From NCBI RefSeq assembly GCF_027257155.1, contig NZ_JAPWDU010000003.1, positions 62,001 to 126,000 on the forward strand: 64,000 nucleotides of DNA, written 5' to 3'. The DNA is from Cerasicoccus sp. TK19100 (GTDB lineage: Bacteria; Verrucomicrobiota; Verrucomicrobiia; Opitutales; Cerasicoccaceae). Both the position numbers and the translations under genes were made by a program. Under the pieces are notes generated by a model that saw nothing but the letters and a program-made list of their open reading frames with translations, made no database searches and was not told where the DNA came from. Below, piece by piece: positions 3,298 to 22,087 of the stretch; positions within the stretch are counted from its first letter, which is position 1, and each line of letters begins with the position of its first letter.

Positions 3298-4770
3298 TTA
3301 TGATGGAGATTGCAATGCTCCCTGCCACCACGGTGGATCTTGATAAATCAATCCACTGTCAGGGTCTGATGGGATAGATCGCTTTGGGTATTGTCGCCAC
3401 GTGCCGCTGCCGTCAGTAGCCTCATGCTCACCGACTTCATGCAACCAATTCAAGCAGTCCTTTCTCAGTCGCAACAACGTTTCTCGATGAGATGGAGACT
3501 GCGCTAGATTATGATGCTCACCAGGGTCATTCAAACAGTCGAAAAGATACTCCCGCTGATCAGGCGCGCTGAAAATGTATTTCCAGTTCTTACTCACCAT
3601 AAGGTAAAGGCCGTTTTCAGCCCGATTATACTGGCTGTAGACATACTCCCGGTTTGCCTTGCCAGCGACAACATTACGCAAGCTGCACCCATCAAAATCT
3701 TCGGGTGAAAATGGAATCTCTGCCGCCTCAAGGATGGTCGGGGCAAGATCGACCAGAGATGCCACCTCACTGCAAGTCCGCCCGGCATACTCACCACCAG
3801 GCCAACGCACTAGCATCGGAACGCGGGCCGACACCTCGTGCATTCCGCGCTTACCAAAACAACCATAATCTCCAAGGTACTCCCCATGATCGCTGGAAAG
3901 CATGATCAGCGTATTATCCCATTGCCCGCTCTCTTCCAGCGCTTTGAAGATCCGCCCTAGCTGCCAATCGATAAAAGATACACAGGCATAGTAGTAAGCC
4001 CGTATGCAGCGCACGAGATTCAAATCGATCCCGCGGTCACGATACTTGTATCGATTTTGAAAACGATTAACAAAGCACAACAAGTCATCAAGGCTCTGGG
4101 GCATATCCGGCAGTGGCATATTTGGAGCCCGATAGCTTTTATGCCAAGGAACTGGTGGGGCAAACGGAGGGTGCGGGTGGACAAAACTACAGAAGGCATA
4201 CCACGGCTCTTCAGCCTTACCTTGGCATTCGATATATTGGATAGTGTGATCAGCGACCCAGGTAACCGGATGCGCCCTTTCGGGAAGCACACTGACCTGC
4301 GGCACATAATACATTTCCCCACGTACACCATGCGGCTCCAATACCCAGTCGTATCCTTCTTCGACCAACCAACGGGCGTAATCGTCAGCATCCCGGTCTT
4401 CTACAATCTCTTCCTGGCTAAACCGTTTCTGAAATCCCCTTAAAGCATGAGGGTCTTTAGTGAAATGGCATTTCCCAATACCAACGGTGTTGTAGCCGTT
4501 AGACGACAAATGATGCATATAGGTTGGCGTGTCCTCCGCTGGCATTGCCTGCTCATTGCAGTAGCAGTTCGTGCGAGGCGGATACCAACCAGTGATCATG
4601 GAGGCGCGCGCAGGAACACATTCGGGCGATGGAGAATAAGCGCGGGTGAACGCCGTGCCTTCATGGACGAGGCGATCAAAGTTAGGCGTATGAATATGAG
4701 GATTACCCAACGCACTGATCGTATCGAAACGCTGTTGGTCCGTGAAGAGGTGAAGTATGTTGGGCCGCAT
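3298..4770 (-). CDS. Sulfatase (S1 family, C-type)
   Basis: A 490-aa alkaline-phosphatase-superfamily sulfatase. The N-terminus MRPNILHLFTDQQ carries the metal-binding Asp. Cys51 lies in CVPAR, the C-x-P-x-R signature in which Cys becomes formylglycine. LSSDHGEYLGDYG supplies the later metal-site residues. It would hydrolyse sulfate esters, probably on a glycan. No signal peptide is present, so it should act in the cytoplasm. It lies 36 bases after the alpha/beta hydrolase gene and follows GH42, giving a probable GH42-esterase-sulfatase operon. The sulfatase subfamily and the sulfate position attacked cannot be read from the sequence. Confidence 0.9.
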   Translation of the reverse strand: MRPNILHLFTDQQRFDTISALGNPHIHTPNFDRLVHEGTAFTRAYSPSPECVPARASMITGWYPPRTNCYCNEQAMPAEDTPTYMHHLSSNGYNTVGIGKCHFTKDPHALRGFQKRFSQEEIVEDRDADDYARWLVEEGYDWVLEPHGVRGEMYYVPQVSVLPERAHPVTWVADHTIQYIECQGKAEEPWYAFCSFVHPHPPFAPPVPWHKSYRAPNMPLPDMPQSLDDLLCFVNRFQNRYKYRDRGIDLNLVRCIRAYYYACVSFIDWQLGRIFKALEESGQWDNTLIMLSSDHGEYLGDYGCFGKRGMHEVSARVPMLVRWPGGEYAGRTCSEVASLVDLAPTILEAAEIPFSPEDFDGCSLRNVVAGKANREYVYSQYNRAENGLYLMVSKNWKYIFSAPDQREYLFDCLNDPGEHHNLAQSPSHRETLLRLRKDCLNWLHEVGEHEATDGSGTWRQYPKRSIPSDPDSGLIYQDPPWWQGALQSPS

Positions 4771-4806: not shown

Positions 4807-5739
4807 TTAGAGATGCTGCTGCAGGAAATCCAGCGCCTGGCGACGCATGGTCGGCGTTTCTTGGTGAGCGACATCTTCTACAACCAGTTTCCAACGATCC
4901 TCTGCTCCGAGGCTGGCATATAGCGCCTTCATCGCTTTATCGATTTTCTCTAAACCGGAAATCGGCGTCAGCGGATCGCGGGCGCCGGCTAATGCCAATC
5001 GCGCCCGAGGTGCAGCCATGGCACAGATATCGATGGTGTTGAAATGCTTTAGCAGACCCGGCACAAAATAATAAATACTATGCCCTGTGAGGCCAGACTG
5101 CTGCTCAAATGCTTCAAAGTCAGTCAGGCAGCAAAGATCGACTCCGACTTTGATGCGTTCATCTAATGCGGCAAGCCACCAGGTCATCGTGCTGCCCATT
5201 GATAAGCCCAAAGAACCGATTCGCCCCGCATCCAATTCATTGCGCGTTTCAATGTAATCGAGCGCCTTCAGACTATCATACACCATCATGCCCCAGACAA
5301 CTCGCCCACGCCAAATCGACGCTTTAAAAAATTCCAATTCCGACCGCCCATGGCGCTCACCGAACAACCAGTGATCGATGCACAAGACGGCAAATCCAAG
5401 ATTGATTAAGTCGCTTAAGTAAGGGCGCTCAATGAGCTCTGGCCGCGAACGCCTCAATTCTTCTTTACCCAACGCGTAATCACCTCCGTGCGCGTGATTA
5501 TAGAGCACGACTGGACAAGGCTTCGTTGCCCGCTTGGGAATCGCAAGGTATGCCGGCGTTGGTTCCATGCCATTGAGGTCCAGCACTAGATGCTCTAACC
5601 GGTATTCGTCAGTGTCTTCGATGATACGGCGATCTGCCGACACCTTTCGATCAAGCGGCGGCAGATCACCGAGTAGCGTATAGAGCTTTGAGCGACGCAC
5701 CGTGGTCGCATCCTTGTCCGATGTTTGATGAAGCGCCAT
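4807..5739 (-). CDS. Alpha/beta hydrolase, acetyl-esterase/dienelactone-hydrolase-like
   Basis: About 310 residues of alpha/beta-hydrolase fold. YNHAHGGDY resembles the oxyanion-hole region, LGLSMGS is the nucleophile elbow G-x-S-x-G, and AGARDPLTP and VEDVAHQETP near the end fit the catalytic Asp and His. It may remove acetyl or other acyl groups from sugars. No signal peptide is present. The ATG at 5739 is preferred because it leaves a 5-base gap after the GH42 stop; an in-frame ATG at 5763 would overlap GH42 by 19 bases. Its position between GH42 and a sulfatase supports a role in stripping substituents from oligosaccharides. The exact substrate is unknown. Confidence 0.8.
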   Translation of the reverse strand: MALHQTSDKDATTVRRSKLYTLLGDLPPLDRKVSADRRIIEDTDEYRLEHLVLDLNGMEPTPAYLAIPKRATKPCPVVLYNHAHGGDYALGKEELRRSRPELIERPYLSDLINLGFAVLCIDHWLFGERHGRSELEFFKASIWRGRVVWGMMVYDSLKALDYIETRNELDAGRIGSLGLSMGSTMTWWLAALDERIKVGVDLCCLTDFEAFEQQSGLTGHSIYYFVPGLLKHFNTIDICAMAAPRARLALAGARDPLTPISGLEKIDKAMKALYASLGAEDRWKLVVEDVAHQETPTMRRQALDFLQQHL

Positions 5740-5744
5740 TTGAA

Positions 5745-7712
5745 TCAGCGGGCTACAGCCCATGAGAATGAAGAGAGTGACACGGAATCCGCGGTTTGTT
5801 GCACGCCGTCACTCGCTGCAAATATCGTTTTGTCACCAATAGAAACCTGACGGCTTTCGGTCCCGTAATTGCAAAGCCCCCAAGCTTCGTCCCCATCATT
5901 TCCCACCAGTGGAATGCAGGAAAAATCCGGAGCTGCGGGGTAGCGCTTAACATTCTCACGTTCAAAAATGCCATCCAAGAACGAGCATCGACTTTGCTCA
6001 TCCAACTCGGAACCAGGGATGTATATAATGCCTTTGCCATGGGTTCGCCGAAGCCCCCAAGCAATGCCAGCAAATCGCTTGCTGGTGTAAACGCCAAGCA
6101 CTTCATCCGCTTCGCTGGGCTCAAACATGATCGCGAATTGATTCGTACGGCCTGGTCGACCACCGATCTCCACATCGAGCTCACCTGCCTGCAAAATATA
6201 ACGAGTGCGGAAGCCGATACGCTTTTCCAGTTGCCCCAATAAATGCTCCTGCTGAGCACCATGGTCTTGAGTGCGGAATCCTGTATAAGGCCCGGCAATC
6301 CAAACGGCACCTTCCTCCACCAGCGTCAGCGCGCGTTCAATAAACTCATCGCTAGCGTATGGCAAATAAGGCGACACAATCACGCGGCAATCAGGCAACT
6401 CAGCTTCATCAAAAACAACGTCACGCCAAATGCCCAAATTGAGCAAAGTTTGGTAATGCTCACGCACACGCTTGTTGTAGTTGTAGTTCTGCTCCAGCCC
6501 TCCGGCCCAATCGGCGAAGAAATAACAACCGTTCACTTCCGATCGCACAAACACAACCTCTGCCTTGGCCGGTCGATATGCTTTGCGAATCGGCTCCAGC
6601 TTCGTGCGTGTTTCAGACGACTCTGCAGCATTCATCCAGCCCGTAGCCGGTTGGCCGTTGGCGTAGACAATCGAATTGTTGATAATCTCTGCGCCACCAG
6701 GTTGTTGCTTCCAAGGCCAGTAGAAGAAACCAGTTCCGCCCATCATGTAGTTGATAAAGCTGTAACAGCCCATCCAACCTTCGGCATACAATTCGCCCCT
6801 CATGAAATCTTCGCTTGCGGTTTCCAGCGTCCAAAACGGTTTGCCCTTTAGAATGTTTCGCAAGGAATCAAAACGGAACTGAATAGCTGTGGTCGACTGG
6901 TTATGGGTATACAAGTCTGACGACGCAAAATCCAGCACACGGCTTAGCCGCCAATCATCGGTTAGCGCTGTGCTGTTATGCGTGACGGGGGCATCACTGT
7001 GCTGTCGGATAATCTCAGCTTGCTCCCGCTGAAATGATGCGATCGCGTCGGCCATGAACCGGCGATAGTTTAGTGTCAGCGCAAAATTCTGCGTGTAATA
7101 GCAAAGCCGGTAAGGCGGCGGCACTTGATCGAAACTAGCATAGCGCTGACTCCAAACAACCGTGCACCATTCTCGGTTTAGTGTTTCAATGTCGCCATAG
7201 CGATTCTCCAGCCAGCGATGCCAGGCCCGAACCGAATCCTGGCCGAGACATCTTTGTTGATGCGAACCCAGCTCATTGTCAGTTTGCCAGGCCAATAATG
7301 CTGGGTGCCCCGCAATGGCAGGGACGATCGCCTGAGTAATCTTACGCGCATACTCACGAAATACGGTGCTATTGTAGGATGCATGCTGGCGAGCACCATG
7401 CTTATGCTGATAGCCATCGGGCTCCACATATCCCACTTCCGGATGTTTCTCCAATAGCCAGACTGGCGGTGTCGCAGTCGGCGTGCAGACTACGCATTCA
7501 ATGTCGTTGGCATGCGCCAAGTCCATCGCGTCAAGTAGCCAATCGGTTTCGTAGCGACCTTCTTCGGGCTCGAAGCAGGCCCAGCCAAACTCTGCAATTC
7601 TGACTGTGTTCAGCCCAAGCCGTCGCATAGCGTGCAAGTCTTCCTCCCAAGTATTGCGCGGATATTGCTCTGGATACCAAGCCGCACCTAAATAAAGTTT
7701 ATTCGAATCCAT
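5745..7712 (-). CDS. Beta-galactosidase, GH42 family
   Basis: About 655 residues, the usual GH42 size. The N-terminus MDSNKLYLGAAWYPEQYP is the standard family opening. WQTDNELG has the acid/base Glu147 and FWTLETASED the nucleophile Glu297. A trimerisation-like domain (around 380-590) and a short beta-sandwich tail follow. The ATG at 7712 is chosen over one at 7745 because the extra residues (MGSVLFLTKNR) do not fit the family. No signal peptide is present, so it should act on imported galactosides in the cytoplasm. It heads a tight minus-strand run with an esterase and a sulfatase. GH42 enzymes can also cleave other beta-linked sugars, so galactose specificity is probable, not proven. Confidence 0.92.
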   Translation of the reverse strand: MDSNKLYLGAAWYPEQYPRNTWEEDLHAMRRLGLNTVRIAEFGWACFEPEEGRYETDWLLDAMDLAHANDIECVVCTPTATPPVWLLEKHPEVGYVEPDGYQHKHGARQHASYNSTVFREYARKITQAIVPAIAGHPALLAWQTDNELGSHQQRCLGQDSVRAWHRWLENRYGDIETLNREWCTVVWSQRYASFDQVPPPYRLCYYTQNFALTLNYRRFMADAIASFQREQAEIIRQHSDAPVTHNSTALTDDWRLSRVLDFASSDLYTHNQSTTAIQFRFDSLRNILKGKPFWTLETASEDFMRGELYAEGWMGCYSFINYMMGGTGFFYWPWKQQPGGAEIINNSIVYANGQPATGWMNAAESSETRTKLEPIRKAYRPAKAEVVFVRSEVNGCYFFADWAGGLEQNYNYNKRVREHYQTLLNLGIWRDVVFDEAELPDCRVIVSPYLPYASDEFIERALTLVEEGAVWIAGPYTGFRTQDHGAQQEHLLGQLEKRIGFRTRYILQAGELDVEIGGRPGRTNQFAIMFEPSEADEVLGVYTSKRFAGIAWGLRRTHGKGIIYIPGSELDEQSRCSFLDGIFERENVKRYPAAPDFSCIPLVGNDGDEAWGLCNYGTESRQVSIGDKTIFAASDGVQQTADSVSLSSFSWAVAR

Positions 7713-7790
7713 TCTATTCTTCGTTAAAAATAATACGCTACCCAATCATGAGCACGACTTTGCGCGAACCAGACCGATGCGCGCCGTTCG

Positions 7791-8501
7791 TTAGCTATCC
7801 GATGCCACGCGTTGGGTTACTGCCTGCATTCTTACTTTGCCGTTCTTTGCATCAGGCAAGAAGAGCACGATTAGCCGAACATTCTCCCGATATTGCCAAC
7901 GGGAGCTAAAGAACGGCTCCCACTGCTTTTCCAAATACGCAGCCAACTTAATCCCAAAGTTCTGCTCTTTGGCGTTTGGCTTTATCGTTTCATAGCCGCC
8001 TGGTGCCAAGCGGATCGTTTCATTGTCGAGCACGCCAGCGATGCTCTTGTCCGTTAAGTTCACGAAGCGAATCTCGCCAACATTCAATGAATGCAAGCTA
8101 TCATCCATCGCGTAGACTTGCCACGGTAATTGCCCGTTAGCGACCGGCATGGGAGAAAAGCACAGCAGGGCTTCATTCACATCATTAGGGATATCTACCT
8201 GCGCTTGAGGAACGCGTTTTTGGCCGCCTTTTCCATCAGGCTCCAAGCGAAAGAAGGTCAACGGATTTGGCCCGTTGTAAGTCTGCCTTGGCCCACGCAC
8301 TGATCCGCCGGGCTGCAATTTCATTGGCTGCCCATTATCTTCATACCAGAGATCACTGGGCATTGACTCAAAAGCAATCGTTGAAAACGCAATCTGACGT
8401 GGTGCCTCCTTTTGAGCAGCCACCGTATGAACTGAAGCCATGATAGCGGCACAACAGACGATGCGGAAACAGCAAGATAATGATTTGAAAAAGGGCCTCA
8501 T
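7791..8501 (-). CDS. Secreted protein of unknown function, translationally coupled to the prepilin-like giant
   Basis: About 236 residues with a signal peptide ending near VHTVAAQ. The mature part looks beta-rich, with no enzyme motif I recognise. FVNLTDKSIAGVLDN and ETIRLAPGGYETI are patterns seen in small secreted Verrucomicrobia proteins. The ATG at 8501 overlaps the TGA of the upstream 1201-aa gene as ATGA, so the two are coupled and probably work together at the cell surface. An in-frame upstream start at 8522 would overlap more. Function unknown. Confidence 0.7.
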   Translation of the reverse strand: MRPFFKSLSCCFRIVCCAAIMASVHTVAAQKEAPRQIAFSTIAFESMPSDLWYEDNGQPMKLQPGGSVRGPRQTYNGPNPLTFFRLEPDGKGGQKRVPQAQVDIPNDVNEALLCFSPMPVANGQLPWQVYAMDDSLHSLNVGEIRFVNLTDKSIAGVLDNETIRLAPGGYETIKPNAKEQNFGIKLAAYLEKQWEPFFSSRWQYRENVRLIVLFLPDAKNGKVRMQAVTQRVASDS

Positions 8502-11500
8502 AATTCCTCTTTGCTTAACCAACGGAAAGCAATGATACGGTACTCCCGTCCGAATGTTTGATTTTCGACGCTATTCAAATTTGCCACGCCCTCTTCATTC
8601 CAGGGTGGGGTGGTTGCGGCATCTGCAAGCGGATCCACGTATTGTGGCAGTCGCTGCACGATCGCCTCACACCATGCTTGGGCTACGACCTCCCCAGTTA
8701 ATGGATCAGTCGCGCCACCATAGGAACGAATAGTGAAAGTATCTCCTCTCACGGTAAGAAAGGCACCAAAAGCGGAAAGCAAATCTGCCTGAGTCAAGAA
8801 ACCGGCGACGCCTGTATCAACCGGAACCTTCGCATGGTCATTGGTTATGTAGCCAAGCATCTCATCTTCCAAAATAGTCGGGCTTTCGGTATTTACTTCG
8901 GCATTGTTGATGGCTGTTTGCAACGCCCCCGCTTTCGCTATTTCCGGATCGTTGCTGACTGACCGATTCACAAACTCGGACATTGAAAGAAAAGGTCCAC
9001 GCAACTTTACCTGCTCAACGATTTCTTGGGCCAGACGTTCAATCGCCGCTTGTGATAATGTAGAGTAACCGGACCATTTATTATCCGGATCGCCCAGAGG
9101 TGTGGAAAAACGGCTAAATCGGTATTCTTCAGTTTCATCCCCAGCAACCAGTGCACCGTTCTCATTCAGTCTGGTAAGACTGCCACTGCCAATACTGGAC
9201 AAGACGGACTTCCATGCCTCCTCAGAAGTCGAGTTGACATTGAACAGGCCCTCCACCCCTAAGTATGCCGCGCTCTCCCGGTGAGCGTTTTCTCGAATTT
9301 TGTCATCCTCGTCGATCAATGCATTCTGAAAACCTTCGCTTGAATCTCCGATGAATTTGATTCGAGCATTCGGCAGCGAGAAAGTTTCGGTATTTGAAAA
9401 ATCTTCCAACACCGTTTGGATCGAACGCTCAGACCCATTGAAGATAGCGGCGTTCTGCGGGGTTATGGATGAAAAATAGTAGCCATCCCAAAGGGCATCA
9501 TTCGTCAGCCAAGCGATATCGATGCTAGCCCGATCCGGTTCTTCTATGACATCAGGCGCGACCCATGGCGGGGCAAAGGAATTGCCAATAGCGTGCGAAG
9601 ATTCGTAACCATAAATCGCAATGTCTACATGCTGCAATTGCCCCAGGGACAGCAGAGGCGCTTTCGGTATGTCGGTGCCAGCAACGAAACTGCGGGAGTC
9701 CGAAGCAAATTCTCGCGTAGGGCCCCAATAGGCCCGGTTGGTATCACCATCGAAATGCACCGCAAAGTATAAATCACTCACCGGAGCGCGGACCGCGGCA
9801 AACGGTGGATTGATGACTCCGTAATCACCCGATGACGCCGACTGCTTATTGGTTTGGAAAGCGTTCATCGAAGATAAGCCAAACATTGGATACGGCCGTA
9901 ATGTGTCATCTTCCGTTTTCAGTCGCAGATCAATCTGGCCCAGCGATTGTTTCTCATCAGCTAGTTGTTGAAAAACTATGTATTCGCCGAGTTCAGGACG
10001 TCTGCCGATATTGCCCATCAAATCTGAATCACCAAAGTTGATGTCAGCCCTGAGTGATGTGTAATGCTGAACGGCTTCCGCGTCCTGATAAATTTGATCG
10101 CGCTTATCGTATTCGCCATTGGAGACGAGATAAGCATCAATCACCATCTGGTTCTTCGCGAATGCTTTGTCCAGACGGCTCACCCAGATAACTCTCTCAC
10201 TCGGCAAGACTTTTTCAAAGTTAACTGCAATTTGATCACTTGCCCGACAAAAGATCATGCCGGTTTCCGCTGAGTCTTCGTCGTCTCCGTATTTATGCCC
10301 GTAGTAGGTGCCGTCGCCCGATCCAGGAACGGGTTCCGGGTCTAATTTATCCAGGAAGAATCCGCCATCCGGGACCCACCCTTCCACTGCGTCGATAGGC
10401 ACATTTTGAACATAAGGTGCCGGCTGTGTATTTCCAGGGGAGTAAATTTTCACCTCTCCAGGTGCCAAGGTAATACCTTCGGGATCACCGATCGTGATGA
10501 TGCCGAAATTACGGTTAGGAATCGCGTCCTTACCCAGTGCCGAGAAGCCAACGATCTCCTCCAAGCTCAACGTATTTGAAACCTGGCCATTCAATTCCCA
10601 CTGCAACGAGTTAACCAAGGCAGGCACCTTTACGGTGATTCCCTGAAACCACAGATTCGTGCTGTAGGGATTATACAACGTAATGATTGGGTCTACGATC
10701 AGACGCAGTTGATATATACCTGACTCGCCTTTGTATTCCGCCGGCTCAATAATTTTACTGGTGTCGGCGACGGGCTCCGCGTTCAGGCTAAGCAACAATT
10801 GAACACGCGCCACGACAGGCGCGACCTTTAACGTTCGCGGACGAATGAGTGGGTCGGACCCACTGAAACCTTTGTTATAACGGTTCTGACCATTGTCATA
10901 CAGATTACTGATGCTCTTACCATTCTTGTTTTCTAATGGGACGGGTAAGGCATGCCTCGCCTCCAATCTGGGTGCCGTAGTCGTGTTATCCAACTCGCGG
11001 TAAAGGCGGTAATAATCGCGCAGTAAATGCCAAGTAGGGCCTTTGTAGTGACCGTTGGTGACATCATCATTGCTAGGCAAATTCCATAAATGCTTTACCG
11101 GCAATCCATCTGGATTGTTCGTCGTGTATAAGCTCAATGGGCCACCTTCGCCAAAAGCAAAGTCCGCGTGCGCATCAAATGTCTCTTGGTCCATTTCAAA
11201 TGCCAAGCTGAGATCCTGCTTCAAACCACCATCCCTAACATTCGTTAAGAGACCAACTGAGTTTAACGACAAATCATGGTAATGCTTACCGAATGCGGTG
11301 CTTAGCGCAATGACGCCCGTTTCCGTGTCAGCGGTTAATCCAACTTCCGCCCCAAAGACGATATCGCCCAGCTGAGAGTTATGCGAGTCGAAGTATTCAG
11401 CAAATGCTCCTTGTGAGTCCGCGTCACGCCCGATGGAATTGATTCCCCATTGGGATGGCGCGGCCAAGTCGAAAGACTGTTGCAGCAAGTCCGCATATGC

Positions 11501-12103
11501 CGATGTGGGCTCGACCAAATTATACCGCGCCTTCACACTCTCGTCCCCAATCCAATAGGCGAAGCGCCCAGTACGTATTTCCTCCAAGCCCGCGTAGACC
11601 ATCTCTGTATCCGTCGCTCCTGCGCCCAGAGTTCCTTCGGCGACCATTGGCACCCAATCGTCTGAACGAACAAAACTCCTAGGCAACGTCAGCTCGGTCA
11701 CATCGAAATCCTCCGGCACCGACACCAGCCATCGTCGAAATAGCGACTCCTTGTCCAAAGGTTGCGCCGGGGCAGTGATGCTCGCCGAATCAGAATCCCA
11801 AACCCCAATCCAATTTGGCTGCGCCGGCGATCCACCAAAGCTTTCTTCAAGAATAGAAGCCGTTGCCGTAACTCTTTGGTCTGGACCGGTGTGCTTCTGC
11901 AATTCGCCTAAGGCAATCAATAAGCCAAACTGAGCATTCTCACGGGCCGTCAACAAATCCTTCTCCAGTCGAGTCCCTGCCATATCCACTCGAACAGTGA
12001 GTACCATCGACAGCAGCAAAAGTACAATGAACCCCATCAACATAAGCGCCAGCACGAGTGCGAAGCCTCTGCTCTGATTTGATTGTTGGGGTTTAGTTTC
12101 CAT
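8498..12103 (-). CDS. Giant prepilin-like protein, Verru_Chthon cassette protein A-like
   Basis: 1201 residues. The N-terminus has a short polar leader, then RGFALVLALMLMGFIVLLLL, a type IV prepilin-like cleavage site (G before F) and hydrophobic helix. The Glu at +5 of ordinary pilins is absent, as in GspK- and PilX-type minor pseudopilins. The rest is a very long exported, mostly beta-like region. The C-terminus (DTFTIRSYGGATDPLTGEV, then AQAWCEAIVQRLPQYVD) recalls the large A protein of the Verru_Chthon cassettes. It probably sits in or outside the inner membrane as part of a pseudopilus-like assembly. The other usual cassette members and a prepilin peptidase are not in this window. Its position beside GH42, sulfatases and GH78 suggests a part in glycan handling, which is inference. 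Confidence 0.72.
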   Translation of the reverse strand: METKPQQSNQSRGFALVLALMLMGFIVLLLLSMVLTVRVDMAGTRLEKDLLTARENAQFGLLIALGELQKHTGPDQRVTATASILEESFGGSPAQPNWIGVWDSDSASITAPAQPLDKESLFRRWLVSVPEDFDVTELTLPRSFVRSDDWVPMVAEGTLGAGATDTEMVYAGLEEIRTGRFAYWIGDESVKARYNLVEPTSAYADLLQQSFDLAAPSQWGINSIGRDADSQGAFAEYFDSHNSQLGDIVFGAEVGLTADTETGVIALSTAFGKHYHDLSLNSVGLLTNVRDGGLKQDLSLAFEMDQETFDAHADFAFGEGGPLSLYTTNNPDGLPVKHLWNLPSNDDVTNGHYKGPTWHLLRDYYRLYRELDNTTTAPRLEARHALPVPLENKNGKSISNLYDNGQNRYNKGFSGSDPLIRPRTLKVAPVVARVQLLLSLNAEPVADTSKIIEPAEYKGESGIYQLRLIVDPIITLYNPYSTNLWFQGITVKVPALVNSLQWELNGQVSNTLSLEEIVGFSALGKDAIPNRNFGIITIGDPEGITLAPGEVKIYSPGNTQPAPYVQNVPIDAVEGWVPDGGFFLDKLDPEPVPGSGDGTYYGHKYGDDEDSAETGMIFCRASDQIAVNFEKVLPSERVIWVSRLDKAFAKNQMVIDAYLVSNGEYDKRDQIYQDAEAVQHYTSLRADINFGDSDLMGNIGRRPELGEYIVFQQLADEKQSLGQIDLRLKTEDDTLRPYPMFGLSSMNAFQTNKQSASSGDYGVINPPFAAVRAPVSDLYFAVHFDGDTNRAYWGPTREFASDSRSFVAGTDIPKAPLLSLGQLQHVDIAIYGYESSHAIGNSFAPPWVAPDVIEEPDRASIDIAWLTNDALWDGYYFSSITPQNAAIFNGSERSIQTVLEDFSNTETFSLPNARIKFIGDSSEGFQNALIDEDDKIRENAHRESAAYLGVEGLFNVNSTSEEAWKSVLSSIGSGSLTRLNENGALVAGDETEEYRFSRFSTPLGDPDNKWSGYSTLSQAAIERLAQEIVEQVKLRGPFLSMSEFVNRSVSNDPEIAKAGALQTAINNAEVNTESPTILEDEMLGYITNDHAKVPVDTGVAGFLTQADLLSAFGAFLTVRGDTFTIRSYGGATDPLTGEVVAQAWCEAIVQRLPQYVDPLADAATTPPWNEEGVANLNSVENQTFGREYRIIAFRWLSKEEL

Positions 12104-12422
12104 AGAAGATTTTGTTTAGAAACCCTGCAGTTCAAATATATGGGCAGGACCGTAAACGAACTTCCAAGCTAGAGAATTTCAGCATTACGCTCAATCAGTT
12201 CTCCCATTCAAGCAATCGAACAAAGTCGGTTATTAACATTTGCGCGCAAGAAAACGGCTCCCGGCCCATCAATAACTCCAGGATGCGTGGAATATACCGG
12301 CACTTGATTCGCCAAAAAGCATACGACTTGAACAATTCAAAAGGTTGAATGAGCGACAAGGCCCCCCTCACACCCATTTACATTGCCGCAGAGGATCCGC
12401 TTTGACTTGAGTGATCGTCATC
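12104..12422. other. Divergent intergenic region between the prepilin-like gene and the GH78 gene
   Basis: About 320 bases that must hold promoters for both directions. It contains the operator candidate at 12336-12349 and an overlapping TTGAACAATTCAA palindrome at 12328-12340. No convincing small gene is seen; the short reading frames here lack family features. Confidence 0.5.
12336..12349. promoter_or_regulatory. Operator candidate, site 2
   Basis: TTCAAAAGGTTGAA has the same TTCAA and TTGAA arms and the same 4-base spacing as site 1. It lies 73 bases before the chosen GH78 start and between two divergent genes, so it could control either or both. Confidence 0.45.
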
Positions 12423-14591
12423 ATGGCAAATGAGCGCACGATCGAACCACTCCCCCAAGAGCAATGCAGTCAGTGGCTTTGGGCAACCGAAGAATACCCC
12501 AATCAAACCCTACTCGTTCGTTGTCTAGTCGACCTGGATAAAGCGGATGATATTCGGATAAACATCTCATCATGTACACGCTACATCCTGTGGATCGGCA
12601 GCAAATACATCGGCCAAGGCCCGTGCCCAGCGCCGTGGCCAGAGTGCGCGGTAGATACCTATAAAGTTCCGCAAGGCGAGATCCGGCATGGCATTCTTCC
12701 CATTTCATTCATCGTTCACTGGTATGGTGTTTCCACCGTAAGCCACCCACTTGGGAAGCCTGGCTGGATGATAAATCTCGATGTCCTAAGCAACGGCTCC
12801 TGGCGCAAAGTTGAGGTAAAGCCCGAGTTCTTCCGGGTATATCAACAAGGCGGATGGATCGCGCAAGCAGCGCGCCGCAGTTGGGCAACCGGATGGATGG
12901 AAAACTTTGACGCCAATCAACACCCGCACGGCTGGCATAAGCCAGAATTCGATGATTCAGATTGGGATATTCCAGCCGTCGTGAATCGAGATGAGATTAA
13001 TCACTTTCCGCGCCCGACGCCCTATTTGAAAGAATGGATGCAATCGCCTGGTAAGCTGGTTATCGCTGCGAGAACATCAGCAGATACGTCGATTGGCCAC
13101 GAGGGCGCGGGACTCACCAAACTATTGGATGAAGAGCCATGGGATCCGCTTTCAGAACAAGAGCTAGGGGCGCTCGCTAACCAATGGCAGTCAAAGAACA
13201 CGATTTCAGTCGAAGGTGGTGAACGCGGGCTTGCCCTTTGCTTCGACTTAGGCGCGGCATGCTCAGGCCATCCGGAGTTCCAGTTGGAATGCTCAGACGG
13301 TGTGGTGGATTGCTATGGGGCTGAATCACTGCGCGACGGTCGCCCGTGGGCATTTAAAGGAAACGCAGAGTATGCCAATCGCTGGTTTGGTGCACCCAAT
13401 GCAGACGCATTTCGCCCCATCAACTACAATGGCTTTCGCTACCTGCTTGTCGTCTTACGTCCCGGCTCATCGACAATGACCCTTCGCCATCTGGGCGTAT
13501 GGCGACGTCAGGCGGATTTGCCAGACTTACCGAAATTCTCAGGAGGCGACGACAATCAAAAACGATTATGGGAAATCAGCCTGCAAACACTTCGCATCTC
13601 CACCCAAGAGACTCTGGTCGATTGCCCAACGCGCGAACAAGGGCTCTACATTGGCGACGGAATTTGGAACGGATTGTGGCTGGCGAAACTATGGAATGAG
13701 CCAAGCTATCTCGCCTACACCTTGGAGGCCATTGCGAAGAGCCAACACAGCAATGGCTTATTCACATCGGCCATCTTTGCCAGCATGGACCCACCGCAGT
13801 ATCTGCTGGATTATTGCCTGGCCTTCATTTGGGGCATCGACATCTATCGAAACATCTCAGGTGATCACACACTGGTTAAGCGACTACTACCTGCGGTCGA
13901 AAAAGCCTTAAGCTGGTTCAATGAGCACACCAACGAACAGCAACTGATCAGCGTCGATCCCATCAGGATCGATCAAAAACCCGGCGGCGAATTTCAAGTC
14001 GTATTCCTCGACCACCCTGGGGTCGGCTGGCATCATTTTCCACATCCAGATATCGAGCGCGACAAGCTACAACTCGGTTTGCAGGCCTTTTGGATCATCG
14101 CCATCGACGCCTTTCAAAAATCATCCAACGCAGTGGCCTATAAGCCGACCACAAGCTTTAAGACGTTTGACATCGATCAACTCCGCCAGTCTTGCCGAGA
14201 GACATTCTTCGATGAGCAAAACCTCCACATCGCAGACTGCGTTAACACCAATGGCGATCGCCGCGGCCAAAGCGAATTATCCGCGGCATTGGCCATACTA
14301 TCCGGCATCGTCTCGCCCGAAGAAGGGCGTGTGATGCTGCAGCAAATGTTGGCTGAGCGCCATGATGGAACCATTAGCCCAAGCACGCCCTACTCCTGGA
14401 TTTACCTGTCTCAGGCCATGGAGCGCTGCGGCATGCAAAGTGAAATACTCCCGCTCGTAGCCAAAGATTGGGGAGCGATGACTCGCTATCCATGGACCAG
14501 CACTTGCTGGGAAACATTTGAATATCGGGAAGAGACCAGCCTCTGTCACCCCTGGTCCGCCCTACCCGCCTGGCTACTCAGTGAGCGATAG
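12423..14591 (+). CDS. Alpha-L-rhamnosidase-like protein, GH78 type
   Basis: About 722 residues. An N-terminal beta-sandwich region (WMENFDANQHPHGWHKPEFDDSDWD is cut here to its start, WMENFDANQHPHGW, and end, DDSDWD) precedes an alpha/alpha six-hairpin catalytic domain. DCPTREQGLYIGD keeps the Asp, Arg, Glu and Asp at the spacing of the catalytic region of bacterial GH78 enzymes (DxxxRExxxxxxD). It would release terminal alpha-L-rhamnose or a related sugar. No signal peptide is visible, so a cytoplasmic role is likely. ATG 12423 is preferred over an upstream GTG at 12411. It is the only plus-strand gene of the large cluster and converges with the sulfatase at 14606, only 14 bases away. Confidence 0.82.
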   Translation: MANERTIEPLPQEQCSQWLWATEEYPNQTLLVRCLVDLDKADDIRINISSCTRYILWIGSKYIGQGPCPAPWPECAVDTYKVPQGEIRHGILPISFIVHWYGVSTVSHPLGKPGWMINLDVLSNGSWRKVEVKPEFFRVYQQGGWIAQAARRSWATGWMENFDANQHPHGWHKPEFDDSDWDIPAVVNRDEINHFPRPTPYLKEWMQSPGKLVIAARTSADTSIGHEGAGLTKLLDEEPWDPLSEQELGALANQWQSKNTISVEGGERGLALCFDLGAACSGHPEFQLECSDGVVDCYGAESLRDGRPWAFKGNAEYANRWFGAPNADAFRPINYNGFRYLLVVLRPGSSTMTLRHLGVWRRQADLPDLPKFSGGDDNQKRLWEISLQTLRISTQETLVDCPTREQGLYIGDGIWNGLWLAKLWNEPSYLAYTLEAIAKSQHSNGLFTSAIFASMDPPQYLLDYCLAFIWGIDIYRNISGDHTLVKRLLPAVEKALSWFNEHTNEQQLISVDPIRIDQKPGGEFQVVFLDHPGVGWHHFPHPDIERDKLQLGLQAFWIIAIDAFQKSSNAVAYKPTTSFKTFDIDQLRQSCRETFFDEQNLHIADCVNTNGDRRGQSELSAALAILSGIVSPEEGRVMLQQMLAERHDGTISPSTPYSWIYLSQAMERCGMQSEILPLVAKDWGAMTRYPWTSTCWETFEYREETSLCHPWSALPAWLLSER

Positions 14592-14605: not shown

Positions 14606-15979
14606 TCAACTTAGCGATATGTTTTCAGCGACCGTTTCGTCCACGCCAAACCCTCTAGCGACTCGCTCATTGCGGAAAAATGTAATCGCTTCCTGATATT
14701 GCGGTTCGCCGATACAATTCGTCATTTCGCCAGGATCCGATTTCAAATCAAAAAGCACTTCTGGCACATCCGGACCATACCACTGATACTTCAAGTGGTC
14801 GCGCTTAATCATCAAGTGCGTGCCCCAGTATTCGGCGCTTACCATGTTATCCCAGCTCGTGGCATCGCCATCCATCAGCGGGACCAAACTACGGCTATCC
14901 AGCCCTTCTGGAACGGGCAGATCACACATATCGCAAAGTGTCGCGAAGAGATCGCAGAGGCTGACATTCTCCGTTACGCGGCCGCCTCCTGCAAATCGCT
15001 TCGGCCACCGGATCACGAATGGCGTCCGCACACTGCCTTCAAAAAATTTGAATTTCTCCCACACACAATGCTCACCGAGCATTTCACCGTGGTCAGATAA
15101 ATAGACAATGATCCAGTCATCCAAATTTTGACCGGCGAACTCCAAGGCGCTAAAGATTTTTTGGAAATCATCGTCCATCGACTCAATCATCCCATAGTAG
15201 GCGGCCACCGCACGGCGGATGTCTCGCTCGCAAACATCTACTCCAGGAGTAAGGGTTTTTTGAGCCAATATTGGATGTTCAAAAATCTCCTGACCTGTGA
15301 AAGGTTGAACCCGATTCAAGTAGTATTCAAAACGTTCCTGATCGGTGAAGTAGGGATAATGCGGCCGGGCAAAACTAACCTTCAGCATTAAGGGCTCGTC
15401 TGGTGTCGCGTTATCGTATTCCGAATCGATGAAGTAACGTCGAATAAAATTGAGTGCTGCATTCAAGGTAAACTGGTCGTCATCCTGATGCGGCCCGCGC
15501 CCGACACCCGCTCGCGCCAGCTCTTTGGCATCGGTCCACTTTAAGGAATAATCAGAATGTTTCTTCGTTTTCACCAATCGCTCGGCGAATTCGTTATTGA
15601 GCTTCGTATCGCCAGCAATGCGGCATGTCCACCCCTGTAATTGATCGGGTCCACGATGATGCAGCTTACCGGCGCAAACCGCGTTGTAGCCATATTGGCT
15701 AAATCGACGCGCATAAGTCATGTGCCCCGGCTGCAAATCCTGATGAAAGCATTCGCAGCCCGTTGTGTGCGGATATTGGCCCGCCATGATACTTTGTCGA
15801 GCCGGCACACAGACCGGCGATGGCGTGTAGGCGTTGTCAAAAGTAACACCAGTGCTGGATAACCAATCAAGAGACGGAGTACGAATAACGGCATCACCAG
15901 CATAACCAGAGACATCTGCGCGATGCTCATCACTCATCAAGATTAGCACATTGGGACGCTGCTCTAAAGATTTCCGCAT
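14606..15979 (-). CDS. Sulfatase (S1 family, C-type)
   Basis: 457 residues. RPNVLILMSDEHRAD is the N-terminal metal site, and Cys57 in CVPARQS is the formylglycine precursor. YLSDHGEMLGEH gives the later metal and substrate residues. No signal peptide is present, so it is predicted cytoplasmic. It differs clearly from the sulfatase at 3298 outside the motifs, so the two likely attack different sulfate positions. It lies 112 bases downstream of the LacI-family gene in the same direction, with an operator candidate in that gap, so it may be both co-transcribed with and controlled by the regulator. Confidence 0.9.
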   Translation of the reverse strand: MRKSLEQRPNVLILMSDEHRADVSGYAGDAVIRTPSLDWLSSTGVTFDNAYTPSPVCVPARQSIMAGQYPHTTGCECFHQDLQPGHMTYARRFSQYGYNAVCAGKLHHRGPDQLQGWTCRIAGDTKLNNEFAERLVKTKKHSDYSLKWTDAKELARAGVGRGPHQDDDQFTLNAALNFIRRYFIDSEYDNATPDEPLMLKVSFARPHYPYFTDQERFEYYLNRVQPFTGQEIFEHPILAQKTLTPGVDVCERDIRRAVAAYYGMIESMDDDFQKIFSALEFAGQNLDDWIIVYLSDHGEMLGEHCVWEKFKFFEGSVRTPFVIRWPKRFAGGGRVTENVSLCDLFATLCDMCDLPVPEGLDSRSLVPLMDGDATSWDNMVSAEYWGTHLMIKRDHLKYQWYGPDVPEVLFDLKSDPGEMTNCIGEPQYQEAITFFRNERVARGFGVDETVAENISLS

Positions 15980-16091: not shown

Positions 16092-17132
16092 CTACGTCAA
16101 AGCCCGCACATTCCGGTTGTTAACCTTGACCGTATTACCTTCGCGCCAAGTGCCTTCAATCACTTGCGTCATCGGATCTTCGGGGCAACCATGCTGTCGG
16201 TTCATCATCTCCATGTGCAACAGGCTGATCGCTTGTGCGCCTGCAATCTCCGACTTCATTTGAATCCCGGAAACCTCACCAGCGCCTTCCAAGCAAAGAC
16301 AGCTGTAGCCAACCTCATCCGGAACTTTAATACCGGCATCCAGCATGAACTGATAAGGAGCTAATTCGTTGCTGATGACAACGTCCGGTTGATTATCCAC
16401 CAACCATTCCAGAAAAGACTTCCTATCCATCTGGTCTGGAATAAAAACCGGAAGCTTCGCCATGCTACGTGGGAATTCAAATTGCTTGGCCAAATACGAT
16501 GCAAGCCAGCGACAACGGTGGAGTTTATTCTCTTTTTCAGACACCGCTAAACCAATGCGCCGGTAACCCATAGTCCGAAGAAAATAGACGGTGAGCTGCA
16601 TTGCCTCGTAATGATTGTGCGTGACCGTATTCACGATTGGCCAATGTAGCGTTCTGCCGACTTGAACAACCGAGAACTTTGAAAAATCAAACTCCATTTC
16701 GTGAACATCCGGTGGCAGCGGCATCAGTAATATGCCCTTGATACCCCGATTGTAGAGAATTGATGCGGTTCTAGCTTCGCCGCCGTGCTCAGATATCCAG
16801 AACTCCTCAAGTTTGTAGCCAAGCTTTTCGCTCATCCGTTGTGCGCCAGCCCAATAGTTGGCGATCGTTGGATTCTTTTTCCAGGCATCCTTCGTATCCC
16901 AATTCGTTAACACCGCAATTGTCGCATTGCGCGAACTTTGCTCATCAACGCGTCGATAAGAGGACAGCGATGACAACCAGGGGTCTGGCGCATACCCGAG
17001 CTCCTCTGCCAATTTTTTAACGCGCTCAATCGTCTCTTTGGGCAGTCGTGGATCATTCCTTAAAGCGAGCGAAACCGTGGAAATCGACACTCCAGCTTTC
17101 TTGCCGATATCCTTAAAAGTTACTCGCTTCAT
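16092..17132 (-). CDS. LacI-family transcriptional regulator
   Basis: 346 residues. The N-terminus (VTFKDIGKKAGVSISTVSLALR) is the LacI helix-turn-helix, followed by a periplasmic-binding-protein-like sugar-sensing domain (IAVLTNWDTKD to the end). The segment after the DNA-binding domain reads GYAPDPWLSSLSSYRR and lacks the usual hinge helix (N-x-A-A-R-x-L) that inserts into a central CG step of classical operators. This agrees with the CG-free centre of the palindromes found in the cluster. It is the only regulator in the 1-29 kb region, so it probably senses a released sugar and controls these genes. No clear operator is visible in the 59 bases before its own start. Confidence 0.92.
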   Translation of the reverse strand: MKRVTFKDIGKKAGVSISTVSLALRNDPRLPKETIERVKKLAEELGYAPDPWLSSLSSYRRVDEQSSRNATIAVLTNWDTKDAWKKNPTIANYWAGAQRMSEKLGYKLEEFWISEHGGEARTASILYNRGIKGILLMPLPPDVHEMEFDFSKFSVVQVGRTLHWPIVNTVTHNHYEAMQLTVYFLRTMGYRRIGLAVSEKENKLHRCRWLASYLAKQFEFPRSMAKLPVFIPDQMDRKSFLEWLVDNQPDVVISNELAPYQFMLDAGIKVPDEVGYSCLCLEGAGEVSGIQMKSEIAGAQAISLLHMEMMNRQHGCPEDPMTQVIEGTWREGNTVKVNNRNVRALT

Positions 17133-17191: not shown

Positions 17192-18280
17192 TCAATCGAC
17201 GCTCAAAGCATCGCGATCCGGCAATGCCGGATATACTGGCGTTTCACCATCTTGATACCAAAAAGCAACGGACGAAATATCATCGCTTAAACAGCGATAA
17301 CGGGCGCGCTGATTCTCCCACCCCAAAGCCTGGATCGTGACACGAATGCGATTACGGAAACGAATTGGGTCGGTGATGTGCCAACGGTAGAGCCCAAAAC
17401 GTTGCTGCGACTGATAGAGCCCGTCCGGACTCCACACATGGGGCATACCAGCATAGGCCGTAGTGAACGGCACGTAGCACTTTAGTTTCTGGTTCTCGAA
17501 ATTATATGAGCCGAGGAAATAATCTTCGGTGCCAGTCCCACAAATCGTCGGGTATGCGTCGTCATCATCCAGGTAGAATTTCACTTCTCCCTCGCCCCAC
17601 CAGCCGTTGGTATTGGACCCCCAGCCGATCACCGTTCCTACGTAATGCCCCCGTCCATGCACGCCATCGAGGATAGTATGTGTCTCCATGCGCGGCAGCG
17701 GATTCACCCTGCGAAACTGGGCATGCAGATAGGCAGCATCTGACGCGACTTCGGCCAGAGCATAGTTGATTTGATAGAACAATACGCGATCTTCGTCGTC
17801 CAGGTTTTCAATCGTCATCCGCAAACGACGCTTGAATGGCATCGTCCAAAAGCAATTCATCGCAGACCCGGGATTAACACATACCGGTTGCGAGCTTACT
17901 TGAGCAAAACGATCCACGGCACCAAACGGCGATGCAAAGAAATCTCCGAGGGGGCACTCAATGGCGGGGTTGGGGCAATCATCGTAATACACCCGCAAGA
18001 TCAGCATACGCCATGGCCCAGTGGGCGTCATCCAGATTTGTTGAATCGCGCCCGGGCCTTCAACGTCCGCAAGCACGACAGTGCTACCAGCGGGCAGCGG
18101 AACATTCGGGCGACATTTCCAGCCCTTACCCAAATGAGCGGACCACTGCTGCGGCTCAGACATACCGCCTTTGCCGGGCTCCCCAGTGGGATTTTCCGGG
18201 GTAATTGAGCGACTGAGCGCATCTGAAAGGGTTGGCAGGGTCGCCAAGTTGTTACTCAAACCATTAAAAGGTAAATTCAT
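17192..18280 (-). CDS. GH172 (DUF2961) family protein
   Basis: About 362 residues. The core (LADVEGPGAIQQIWMTPTG, LRVYYDDCPNPAIECPLGDF, and GTGEDYFLGSY) is typical of DUF2961, now GH172, whose known members act on fructofuranose- or arabinofuranose-containing substrates. GVHGRGHYVGTVIGWGSN and GEGEVKFYLDDD fit the second jelly-roll half of the family. The ATG at 18280 is chosen because the family starts near MNLPFNGLSNNL; the frame extends upstream to 18370 but that part is not conserved-looking. No signal peptide is present. Two operator candidates lie just upstream. Specificity cannot be read from the sequence. Confidence 0.85.
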   Translation of the reverse strand: MNLPFNGLSNNLATLPTLSDALSRSITPENPTGEPGKGGMSEPQQWSAHLGKGWKCRPNVPLPAGSTVVLADVEGPGAIQQIWMTPTGPWRMLILRVYYDDCPNPAIECPLGDFFASPFGAVDRFAQVSSQPVCVNPGSAMNCFWTMPFKRRLRMTIENLDDEDRVLFYQINYALAEVASDAAYLHAQFRRVNPLPRMETHTILDGVHGRGHYVGTVIGWGSNTNGWWGEGEVKFYLDDDDAYPTICGTGTEDYFLGSYNFENQKLKCYVPFTTAYAGMPHVWSPDGLYQSQQRFGLYRWHITDPIRFRNRIRVTIQALGWENQRARYRCLSDDISSVAFWYQDGETPVYPALPDRDALSVD

Positions 18281-18312
18281 CGCTTCAATCAGTTGGTATT
18301 TAAACTGTCGTG

Positions 18313-18334
18313 TGTATTCAAACAGATGAATACA
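18313..18334. promoter_or_regulatory. Operator candidate, site 4
   Basis: TGTATTCA and TGAATACA form perfect 8-base arms around 6 bases. The core TTCAAACAGATGAA has one mismatch to the TTCAA-N4-TTGAA form. It is 33 bases before the GH172 start at 18280. Confidence 0.42.
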
Positions 18335-18387
18335 GGGTTGCCGCTGAGCTAATCCCGCAAGATTAACCACATCAACGGCAACCCTTA

Positions 18388-21400: not shown

Positions 21401-22049
21401 TTACGCCCCGTCCGTCATGAAAAGCATTTAGATACTGTCCGTAGTAATCAGCCGGCCAGATATCCTCTCGCCAGTCCTGATTGGGCTCATTGTGATCCTC
21501 AAAATAACGGACATAGTCCAGTCCTTGAACCTTGTCCGATGTCTCAAGACGAGACGCAGAAAGTCCGCCGGTTGGGCCATAACGCGCCGCCATCTGAGCA
21601 ACATACTCAGCGCGCTCACGGTAATGATTAGGTTCTTCGCCCGTGCCATTATCAATTGGCAACTGAATGCTACTACCGACCCATAATGGAGGATCCATTG
21701 GGACCACGACTAAGTTGACGCCGTCTTCGTTCAGTAAGCGGTAGTACTCGTCGAAGTAAAAAATACGACCGCCATCTTTACTCATCCATTGATAGTCGTC
21801 ATTCTCCGGCTCAAACTGATCCCAACGCTGATAGTTACGCGCCCATTTGAATGCCTGGCTGATATCGGTGTGAGAAAACCCGATGCTGGGATCGTCGATG
21901 TCTTTATAATAATCCTTCCACAGCACGGAGTGGATATTAATTCCCATGAAGTCATTCATGGTTCCAGAGTACTCCGTGTAAGCTAACACGGAGGAGGCCC
22001 CGCAGGCCAGCGACATACAAGTCGTAATGGTTTTGAGGATCGAATTCAT
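18441..22049 (-). CDS. Large secreted glycoside hydrolase (clan GH-A-like) with PKD, CBM6 and repeated CBM-like modules
   Basis: About 1202 residues from the ATG at 22049, with a signal peptide ending near SSVLA. Residues about 25-430 look like a TIM barrel: Glu188 in EDHNEPNQDW fits the acid/base and Glu326 in VWVTEFGWD the nucleophile of clan GH-A. A beta-sandwich, a PKD-like domain (about 550-620), a CBM6 (IEAEDYDDGGEGITYHD to VVLDSIDIQ, about 645-760), a CBM-like module (about 775-900), a second PKD-like domain (about 960-1050) and a second copy of the CBM-like module (about 1065-1180) follow. It likely cuts an extracellular polysaccharide while anchored by several binding domains. The GH family is unassigned; agarase/porphyranase-like families are a guess. 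A TTG start at 22091 is possible but less likely. Confidence 0.78.
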   Translation of the reverse strand: MNSILKTITTCMSLACGASSVLAYTEYSGTMNDFMGINIHSVLWKDYYKDIDDPSIGFSHTDISQAFKWARNYQRWDQFEPENDDYQWMSKDGGRIFYFDEYYRLLNEDGVNLVVVPMDPPLWVGSSIQLPIDNGTGEEPNHYRERAEYVAQMAARYGPTGGLSASRLETSDKVQGLDYVRYFEDHNEPNQDWREDIWPADYYGQYLNAFHDGRGVIRDGSMPIAGVKQGDPNAFHVAGGLNNNGIDDTFLEMMFLSAGRQAFDIINIHTYCRNTHLYPANTWPWPPEAKGTSPEYYIIESGLEEIQQTIEWRDANLPGTPVWVTEFGWDTFEKPDGTHSTNYAPEVSQANYIMRTFPLFKKIGVDKAFLFYDFDPNSTSPKMFSSSGIFKDKTLGHESKPSYFYMTAMSQAIGEYAYDGAHFFGQGDPEIYAYLFSKSDTDVVLMIWCRERDTLFDNGTTTTNYTLAVPYVEDCELITPTDDIIGGVASVLNVSQAGQSGASVTIPLLSETPVFLKLSGTQNIRPNLAPEVSAGKDFEMQLPATACTVTCEASDADGSIAAYQWTQLSGPSATIQQPASAATQLSNLSAGDYVFQVEATDNDGATVRDVVAFSVTNRTTYLSSRFAVPGLIEAEDYDDGGEGITYHDTTTGNSKGEYRLDDDVDINKFSSGGHYITDVVAGEWVDYSVTVVESGLYSMNLRIAAYNDDRRVKVLMDGVTVSGMMQVIQTGDWDVFADNVAAPVNLTAGDHVMRVYFDTSGVVLDSIDIQPYDDGSSVDGYLSLSNTASGWQTLRIFYENNWLDDVDVLAGGNQFLELYLTDESSGLTADWTKLKVALEDTSQTLAELTIGNYETNIGVNWTLVQIPLTDFAALGVDLNHIRFVAINSAGANAFDIGVDEIIFSGGSDPFVWMGETHPINPVSNSNISHTFETTGGVGWLPPYNEPPFVDAGVDVIIRPLADSYTFVSNVYDIDGYVTSYEWTQLSGPNLVQATGIYGPDLSVELDTFGTYEFRLTATDDSGKTCEDDVTLIYEDTGGYLSIDHNAANWRTFSILYDVERLPKDVLGASPSNTDIEFYLKCFDLTYPIDWTRLKIELADASAVKIAVPVSNYETTIDGQWVKVTIPLSDFGAVDLSQLLKVTLISANAGPFYSLGIDEMRFVGGATPVLWYGDDHPEVDLSAIPAEMTVINTVSDGFVQPAP

Positions 22050-22050
22050 A

Positions 22051-22073
22051 GTGGGGTATCGGGTTGTGGGGTT
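22051..22073 (-). promoter_or_regulatory. C-rich leader motif before the large GH gene
   Basis: On the coding strand AACCCCAC (22066-22073) and ACCCCAC (22051-22057) precede the ATG at 22049; there is no Shine-Dalgarno sequence. Similar motifs precede the PEP-CTERM and tandem-esterase genes. Confidence 0.3.
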
Positions 22074-22087
22074 AGTTAAAATAAAGC

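Follow-up and report, generated by a model that had tools for sequence, protein, structure and literature searches.

A giant prepilin-like protein and its coupled partner

In a stretch of 64,000 nucleotides from the verrucomicrobial bacterium Cerasicoccus sp. TK19100 (positions 62,001 to 126,000 of contig NZ_JAPWDU010000003.1, here C3), which we call the window, two coupled genes named A and B turn out to be one of many such pairs scattered through the genome. Gene A (8498..12103, minus strand) is an open reading frame (ORF) of 1201 codons whose product, according to a predicted model, is a giant minor pseudopilin of GspK fold. Its N-terminus reads METKPQQSNQSRGFALVLALMLM and contains the prepilin-type stretch GFALVLALMLM (residues 13-23; 12035..12067, minus strand), which has no glutamate at position +5 (E5). 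An AGAGGA stretch and an ATGA stop/start overlap (8498..8501, minus strand), both read directly in the DNA, lead into gene B (7791..8501, minus strand), which encodes a predicted exported-type protein of 236 residues from the ATG at 8501; the ORF list also holds an alternative TTG start at 8522, seven codons upstream. An earlier note, made from the sequence of the window alone, had described a 1201-residue prepilin-like protein coupled by ATGA to a small exported-type protein of no named family. ORFs and DNA bear out this description, and profile searches agree with it, since neither A nor B matches a Pfam family at E <= 0.01 and B has no NCBIfam match at E <= 1. Scans of positions 7600-12500 returned one promoter-like site (5.4 in shuffled sequence) and six terminator-like sites (5.6 in shuffles), that is, nothing above the shuffles in the first case and no excess in the second.

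A predicted GspK fold interrupted by a large insertion

The AlphaFold model of A (residues 14-1201, 56 sequences) has a predicted local distance difference test score (pLDDT) of 79.7 and a predicted template modelling score of 0.84. When compared with known structures by VIA, this model aligns with E. coli GspK (3ci0_K) over 245 of 280 residues (Z 11.6, root-mean-square deviation 3.2) and with three XcpX chains at Z 11.2, 11.2 and 10.7. All of the top four rows are thus GspK/XcpX, with 227-261 residues aligned in chains of 259-295, and the next unrelated row falls to Z 2.9. The predicted fold supports the suggestion in the earlier note that A is a pseudopilus-type subunit. In the account that we draw on here (PMC6211770), GspK is placed at the tip of the pseudopilus of type II secretion.

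The architecture of A is best appreciated by alignment with six short A proteins (411-446 residues), found in as many relatives of the same order. An N-terminal core common to these proteins (residues 14-279; 11267..12064, minus strand) and a C-terminal core with RGPF and DTFxIRxYG-type motifs (residues 943-1201; 8501..9277, minus strand), about two-thirds of which is covered by short A, flank a stretch that lies outside short A coverage (residues 280-942; 9278..11266, minus strand). About 660 residues would therefore be inserted in the GspK fold. The most variable part of this insertion (residues 554-793; 9725..10444, minus strand) has a mean pairwise identity per block of 0.12-0.16, compared with 0.14-0.51 in the other blocks, and VIA rows within insertion residues 411-740 are uninformative (Z 2.9 or less). 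By sequence, the GspK model NF037980 scores 11.3 bits with A and 33.8 bits with the best short relative (two stretches, E 2.5e-8), both below its equivalog cut-off of 130 bits, and in Pfam the short A proteins had a few scattered and weak matches (best E 0.0055), none of them to a GspK family. The start is much better conserved. The prepilin-type pattern is matched in 71 of the 78 rows of two alignments (A1 and A3), with E at +5 in none of the 71, and it is invariant across 22 aligned A paralogues. GspK likewise is not known to have E5. On the strength of its predicted model, A would therefore be a giant minor pseudopilin of GspK type.

One partner for each giant

Searching the genome with A gave 59 matches falling in 23 loci, and A was recovered by phmmer in each of the 20-kb stretches around them (23/23). 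A fitting ORF follows A on the same strand in every locus. Genes in these counts were chosen by a simple ORF rule. A B profile, of which the window's B is the sole member from this genome, recognises B in 23/23 loci with no further match in the 23 stretches. Conversely, all 14 matches of the window's B in the genome adjoin an A. Distances among A proteins correlate with those among their B proteins (r 0.747 for 21 pairs, a value reached by none of 2000 permutations), which fits the duplication of each pair as a whole, and a pair that recurs 23 times in one genome is more than chance. One copy of A (L039:7929-11489; contig C2, around 350.4-354.0 kb) is split by a stop codon, its B being open.

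The pair is not restricted to this organism. Among the best 80 matches of A in other genomes, 78 loci come from named genomes and contain 88 A frames that are 300 or more residues long, 78 of which have a B, by profile, directly behind. The organisms in question include Cerasicoccus, Coraliomargarita, Haloferula, Luteolibacter, Roseibacillus and two Kiritimatiellota. In 288 genomes drawn from the phylum, with at most two candidates scored per genome, an A1 match at E <= 1e-10 was found in 76. Some arrangements are more elaborate: an Akkermansiaceae metagenome-assembled genome (L065) has four A-B pairs in tandem over 17.5 kb, the first A being incomplete or truncated where the locus ends, and two consecutive B genes stand behind one A in three other loci (L086:10429-12078, L091:10216-11591 and L122:5688-7152).

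The AlphaFold model of B (pLDDT 93.2) consists of a signal-peptide-type helix (residues 4-26) and two beta-sandwiches (around 35-133 and 141-232). Foldseek and VIA match it to PepT extracellular domains (Z up to 12.7), which we take to be immunoglobulin (Ig)-like, to cytolysin domains, to HGSNAT and to AlgF. These Protein Data Bank matches are beta-sandwiches of a widespread kind, with identities near 10%, and no function was drawn from them. Going by the pairing and the predicted model, B would be the dedicated exported partner of A, with two Ig-like domains.

A pseudopilin operon without a tip gene

The genome encodes five pseudopilins of types G, G, H, I and J in an operon on contig C6 (L132), the only one of its kind. 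No A is found among its genes or adjoining them, and a gene that is MenA-like by the look of its sequence stands behind the J-type gene. The arrangement differs in nine chosen relatives, genomes of one family (L161-L169), where A lies behind exactly five pseudopilin-type starts on its own strand and within 4.2 kb (9/9 loci). A ends the pseudopilin operon in these loci, either as a short A without B (six) or as a long A of 975-1094 residues followed by B (three). All 20 pseudopilins taken from six of these loci have their best BLAST partner in the C6 operon, the targets being eight stretches of the Cerasicoccus sp. TK19100 genome with prepilin clusters.

The absence of A from the operon is shared by other genomes with several A copies. 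We chose 15 genomes that have two or more A loci. Every one of them has a single J-type protein (E <= 1e-8), whose flanks (about 0.8-1.5 kb) hold A or B in 0/15, with open-ended frames included and three positive controls found. Ten of the 15 were re-examined in wider stretches of about 10 kb, where the ORFs listed include neither A nor B; in one of these stretches (L200) the choice of ORFs hid the J gene too. The ten multi-copy genomes scored in full have from three (G129) to 41 (G157) A candidates. By comparison, four genomes (G018, G272, G141 and G123) have 2-8 candidates and 2-4 matches (eight and two in G123), and the A matches listed for each of these four lie in one locus.

The operon lacks a tip gene in genomes where dispersed tips abound, and the simplest reading is that the C6-type pseudopilus is capped by A and can be fitted with one tip or another. 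We consider it probable that A-B pairs are interchangeable, locus-specific tips for a shared pseudopilus, and the case for the A-B pairing, the fold and the operon logic is strong. An alternative is that A and B are expanded membrane-anchored surface adhesins outside any pseudopilus and that the C6 operon is without A by coincidence, which would fit with the size and divergence of the paralogue family, with its variable middle part and with A being beside pseudopilins in none of the 15 multi-copy genomes. We judge it improbable, for surface adhesins of this sort would account poorly for a prepilin-type start that is invariant in the aligned paralogues, for the GspK fold kept by the window's A, or for the chosen relatives in which A sits inside the pseudopilin operon with, in three of nine cases, B behind it.

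The genome also has canonical prepilin-type genes that stand alone: 22 of 49 are without another within 3 kb (e.g. C8:99134, C2:736152 and C6:230998). Among the 20 solitary genes on contigs whose length is known, eight have a LacI or sulfatase gene at a distance of 5 kb or less, where 2.7 would be expected (fraction 0.003).

Not a Verru_Chthon cassette A protein

The earlier note had likened A to Verru_Chthon cassette protein A, while remarking that the usual B, C and D partners were absent. The first part did not survive scrutiny. The only NCBIfam matches of A at E <= 1 are the Verru_Chthon A model TIGR02600 (17.4 bits, residues 13-75) and GspK, and the former is an N-terminal match of about 60 residues that falls far short of the curated full-length cut-off (332.3 bits). 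Genome-wide, TIGR02600 has eight N-terminal matches, none above the cut-off, and in the phylum it has a match in 62 of 115 genomes and exceeds the cut-off in two. Nine high-scoring loci from these two genomes (L152-L160) served as a comparison set. In a profile comparison with eight of their A proteins (943-1432 bits on TIGR02600, some frames having extra N-terminal residues; L153, a frame fused with other sequence, was omitted), 67 N-terminal columns align with a probability of 95.7 and there is no full-length similarity. Verru_Chthon A was accordingly rejected as the family of A, on the cut-off and on this N-terminal-only alignment.

The neighbourhoods differ as well. Pseudopilin starts adjoin A, on its strand and two to four at a time, in eight of the nine high-scoring loci, the exception being L159 (one of the four starts in L158 looks spurious), the B profile has no match in any of the nine, and the A1 profile matches four of their 93 ORFs at 27 bits or less. 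By contrast, an N_methyl (PF07963) search of the window gave no match, hence no cassette-type pseudopilin beside A. As to the missing partners, there are indeed none beside the window pair, as the note had said, but the genome does have the five-pseudopilin operon on C6. An N-terminal-only match, pseudopilin neighbours and no B in the high scorers point to a common N-terminal type in another family. That A might be a true Verru_Chthon cassette A protein, having lost its B, C and D partners, appears highly improbable to us; TIGR02600 is its best NCBIfam match, the N-termini do align and C6 operon members have weak N-terminal matches to Verru_Chthon B (25.7 bits, cut-off 51.4) and C (28.0 bits, cut-off 256.5), but the score of A, the lack of full-length similarity to any of the eight members and the different company kept by the cassette proteins all argue against it. 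A and Verru_Chthon A could share an origin within the GspK type. A literature search by the name 'Verru_Chthon' found no paper.

Which machine?

The genome has a complete type II secretion system (T2SS) operon on C3 (L224:4661-15292) with its own GspK (107.9 bits, cut-off 130), secretin, ATPase and GspF. On C4 there is a PilT-type gene above its cut-off, together with PilB/GspE- and PilC/GspF-type genes just below theirs. Lastly, C6 has a locus (C6:324823-332090; L229:824-8091) reminiscent of MUL2, a conserved type IV-like pilus system of Akkermansiaceae that has been proposed to mediate attachment to glycans (PMC13174399). Three of its five genes match Amuc models, all below cut-off and in the order Amuc_1101 (363.9 bits of 650), Amuc_1100 (81.8 of 180) and Amuc_1098 (384.6 of 750), and the locus ends 16.5 kb before the C6 pseudopilin operon, on the same strand. 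A search of C6 for a T2SSE-family ATPase gave no match, and the only secretin match on this contig is that of the MUL2-like locus. We infer that the MUL2-like locus, the C6 operon and A may form one machine.

Instead of capturing external glycans, exchangeable GspK-like tips could each select the large exported enzymes of their own locus for export. In its favour, the tip complex of P. aeruginosa is described in one account (PMC6211770) as critical for recognising secretion substrates, genes next to the pairs tend to be long (48,846 residues in 91 proteins vs 31,810 in 92 control proteins), and one pair neighbour is a protein of 1126 residues, exported by the look of its start, with domains of glycoside hydrolase (GH) family 5 and carbohydrate-binding module (CBM) family 9. 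We nevertheless regard such secretion tips as unlikely, though worth keeping in mind, given that the complete T2SS is separate and has its own GspK, and that C6 offers neither a T2SSE-family ATPase nor a secretin other than that of the MUL2-like locus.

Returning to tips for a shared pseudopilus, the 23 pairs would be interchangeable modules for the five pseudopilins encoded once, on C6. Since every pair has a locus to itself, in many cases together with a sugar-type regulator, a given tip might be made when its substrate is present. B and the variable insertion of A would face this substrate. They would bind a glycan or surface that the filament captures; a less likely role is to pick out the large enzymes of the locus for export. 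As for the motor, it may be provided by the MUL2-like pilus locus at a distance of 16.5 kb, together with PilB/PilT/PilC-type genes located elsewhere.

A link to glycan genes

The window pair lies among glycan genes. Directly behind B there is a GH42 beta-galactosidase gene (5745..7745, minus strand; PF02449, E 8e-98), followed by an alpha/beta hydrolase with a weak DLH match (4807..5763, minus strand; PF01738, E 1e-4) and a sulfatase on the strand of A and B (3298..4770, minus strand; PF00884, E 3e-51). On the other side, a rhamnosidase-type hairpin glycosidase (12411..14591, plus strand; PF17389, E 4e-13) is divergent from A, and its Bac_rhamnosid6H domain is presumably of GH78 type; a second sulfatase (14606..15979, minus strand; PF00884, E 9e-40) and a LacI-family regulator (16092..17132, minus strand; PF00356, E 7e-13) come next. 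The pair thus lies, as the earlier note had it, between rhamnosidase-type and GH42 genes, the latter on its own strand. Further on, positions 18441-25216 hold tandem giants of 1216 and 1042 residues with PKD, CBM6/35, Big_9 and esterase-type domains. DUF2961 proteins are encoded near two of the 23 pairs (window 17192-18370 and L035:6693-7850).

Genome-wide, the link holds for LacI regulators. LacI genes lie within 5 kb of ten of the 23 A copies, where 2.8 would be expected, a value attained in a fraction of 0.0002 of 5000 random placements on six contigs (0.0002-0.0036 across the six distances tried). Among the two nearest genes on each side of the pairs (91 proteins) and 92 control genes chosen outside the surroundings of pairs, 112 and 122 Pfam families were matched, respectively, and the counts given here come from the 25 commonest in each set. 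Neighbours listed include LacI (6), AraC (4), CBM96, SSF and sulfatase (3 each), and GH1, GH5, GH16, GH28 and rhamnosidase (2 each); in the controls listed SSF reaches 2 and none of the other families exceeds one. Neighbourhoods are also conserved. The best outside match of A shares a neighbour in nine of the 22 own copies compared vs 127 of 1716 for all combinations. For the five A copies with a best outside match more than 45% identical, all in Cerasicoccus, 6, 5, 2, 5 and 1 neighbour genes are shared, including GH94, GH43 and LacI, and six of the nine listed combinations above 45% share a neighbour. Two pairs illustrate this well, one having LacI, GH94 and DUF2961 in common with C. frondis (L035) and the other LacI, GH43 and GH5/CBM9 (L050). 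C. frondis has near relatives of two of the pairs (L054 and L077).

Several observations weigh against exchangeable tips for glycan loci. For the fold, (i) parts of the insertion have a pLDDT under 50, (ii) Foldseek alone ranks GspK first for A but with an E of 0.33 and (iii) an NCBIfam search found no sequence match of the giant A to GspK beyond the N-terminus. For the pairing, 10 of the 88 A frames elsewhere are without B directly behind (five with another ORF only, three at a contig edge and two with none, two of the ten being first halves of a split A), and two loci of one genus (L170 and L171) have four A genes, in two divergent arrangements, where the B profile has no match. For the machine, a complete T2SS with its own GspK means that A could serve another one, and both the nine relatives and the 15 multi-copy genomes were hand-picked, not random. 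For the glycan link, sulfatases lie within 5 kb of three of the 23 A copies, with 1.6 expected (fraction 0.21), which is no enrichment, three of the nine combinations above 45% identity share no neighbour and some pairs adjoin no recognisable glycan gene (e.g. L031, L044, L046 and L052). The sulfatase link not being significant, the glycan claim rests on LacI, the neighbour survey and the conserved neighbourhoods. The connection with glycan genes proposed in the earlier note is therefore upheld in part, by the non-random placement near LacI, but not for sulfatases or for the several pairs without a visible glycan gene.

Outlook and comparison with known systems

Algal polysaccharides and mucin are among the substrates that Verrucomicrobiota degrade, and there are recent indications of a type IV-like pilus by which they attach to glycans (PMC13174399). 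A family of tips with a variable insertion, encoded near particular glycan genes and fitting the product of one pseudopilin operon, would supply the means for such a filament to distinguish glycans, and would do so in a way that is testable pair by pair. A literature search, mostly without full texts, found no description of a pseudopilus with a tip gene multiplied into a dispersed repertoire, and no paper that we recognised as describing the A-B pair. Our broadest picture, which we advance tentatively as a possibility short of probable, is that of plug-in tips in Verrucomicrobiota: one pseudopilus core that lacks a tip gene and is perhaps driven by the MUL2-type machine would receive any of up to dozens of giant GspK-like tips (23 here), which carry an Ig-like cap and are each encoded in, and regulated together with, a particular glycan locus, so that the cell chooses its polysaccharide. 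If true, the system would do with a filament what the SusC/SusD pairs do in Bacteroidota.

Comparison with better-known systems helps to delineate what is new. With GspK/XcpX, A shares a predicted fold over 227-261 residues and a prepilin-like start without E5. Its homologues in the nine chosen relatives also lie behind pseudopilin genes, which the window's copy does not. A departs from GspK/XcpX by its 660 or so inserted residues, its 23 dispersed copies and the Ig-like partner gene behind each, stays below the cut-off of the GspK model and is distinct from the K protein of the genome's own T2SS. Verru_Chthon A members resemble the window's A in being near 1200 residues, in their first 60 residues and in having several copies per genome, but they have a full-length profile that A does not match, pseudopilin starts beside eight of nine high scorers and no B there. 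The MUL2 system of Akkermansia (Amuc_1098-1102 type) has a similar locus here, 16.5 kb from the C6 operon, with three of five genes matching below cut-off, but no giant GspK-like protein or Ig-like partner is mentioned in its description (PMC13174399). A further comparison comes from the same order: according to one proteome study of an Opitutales strain, with one replicate per treatment, a pseudopilin is among the genes over-expressed on alginate, and Verruconatronum alginivorum is credited there with 67 homologues of a PulG-like pseudopilin from an alginate-induced cluster, a class of pseudopilin other than that of the GspK-like A (PMC13274419).

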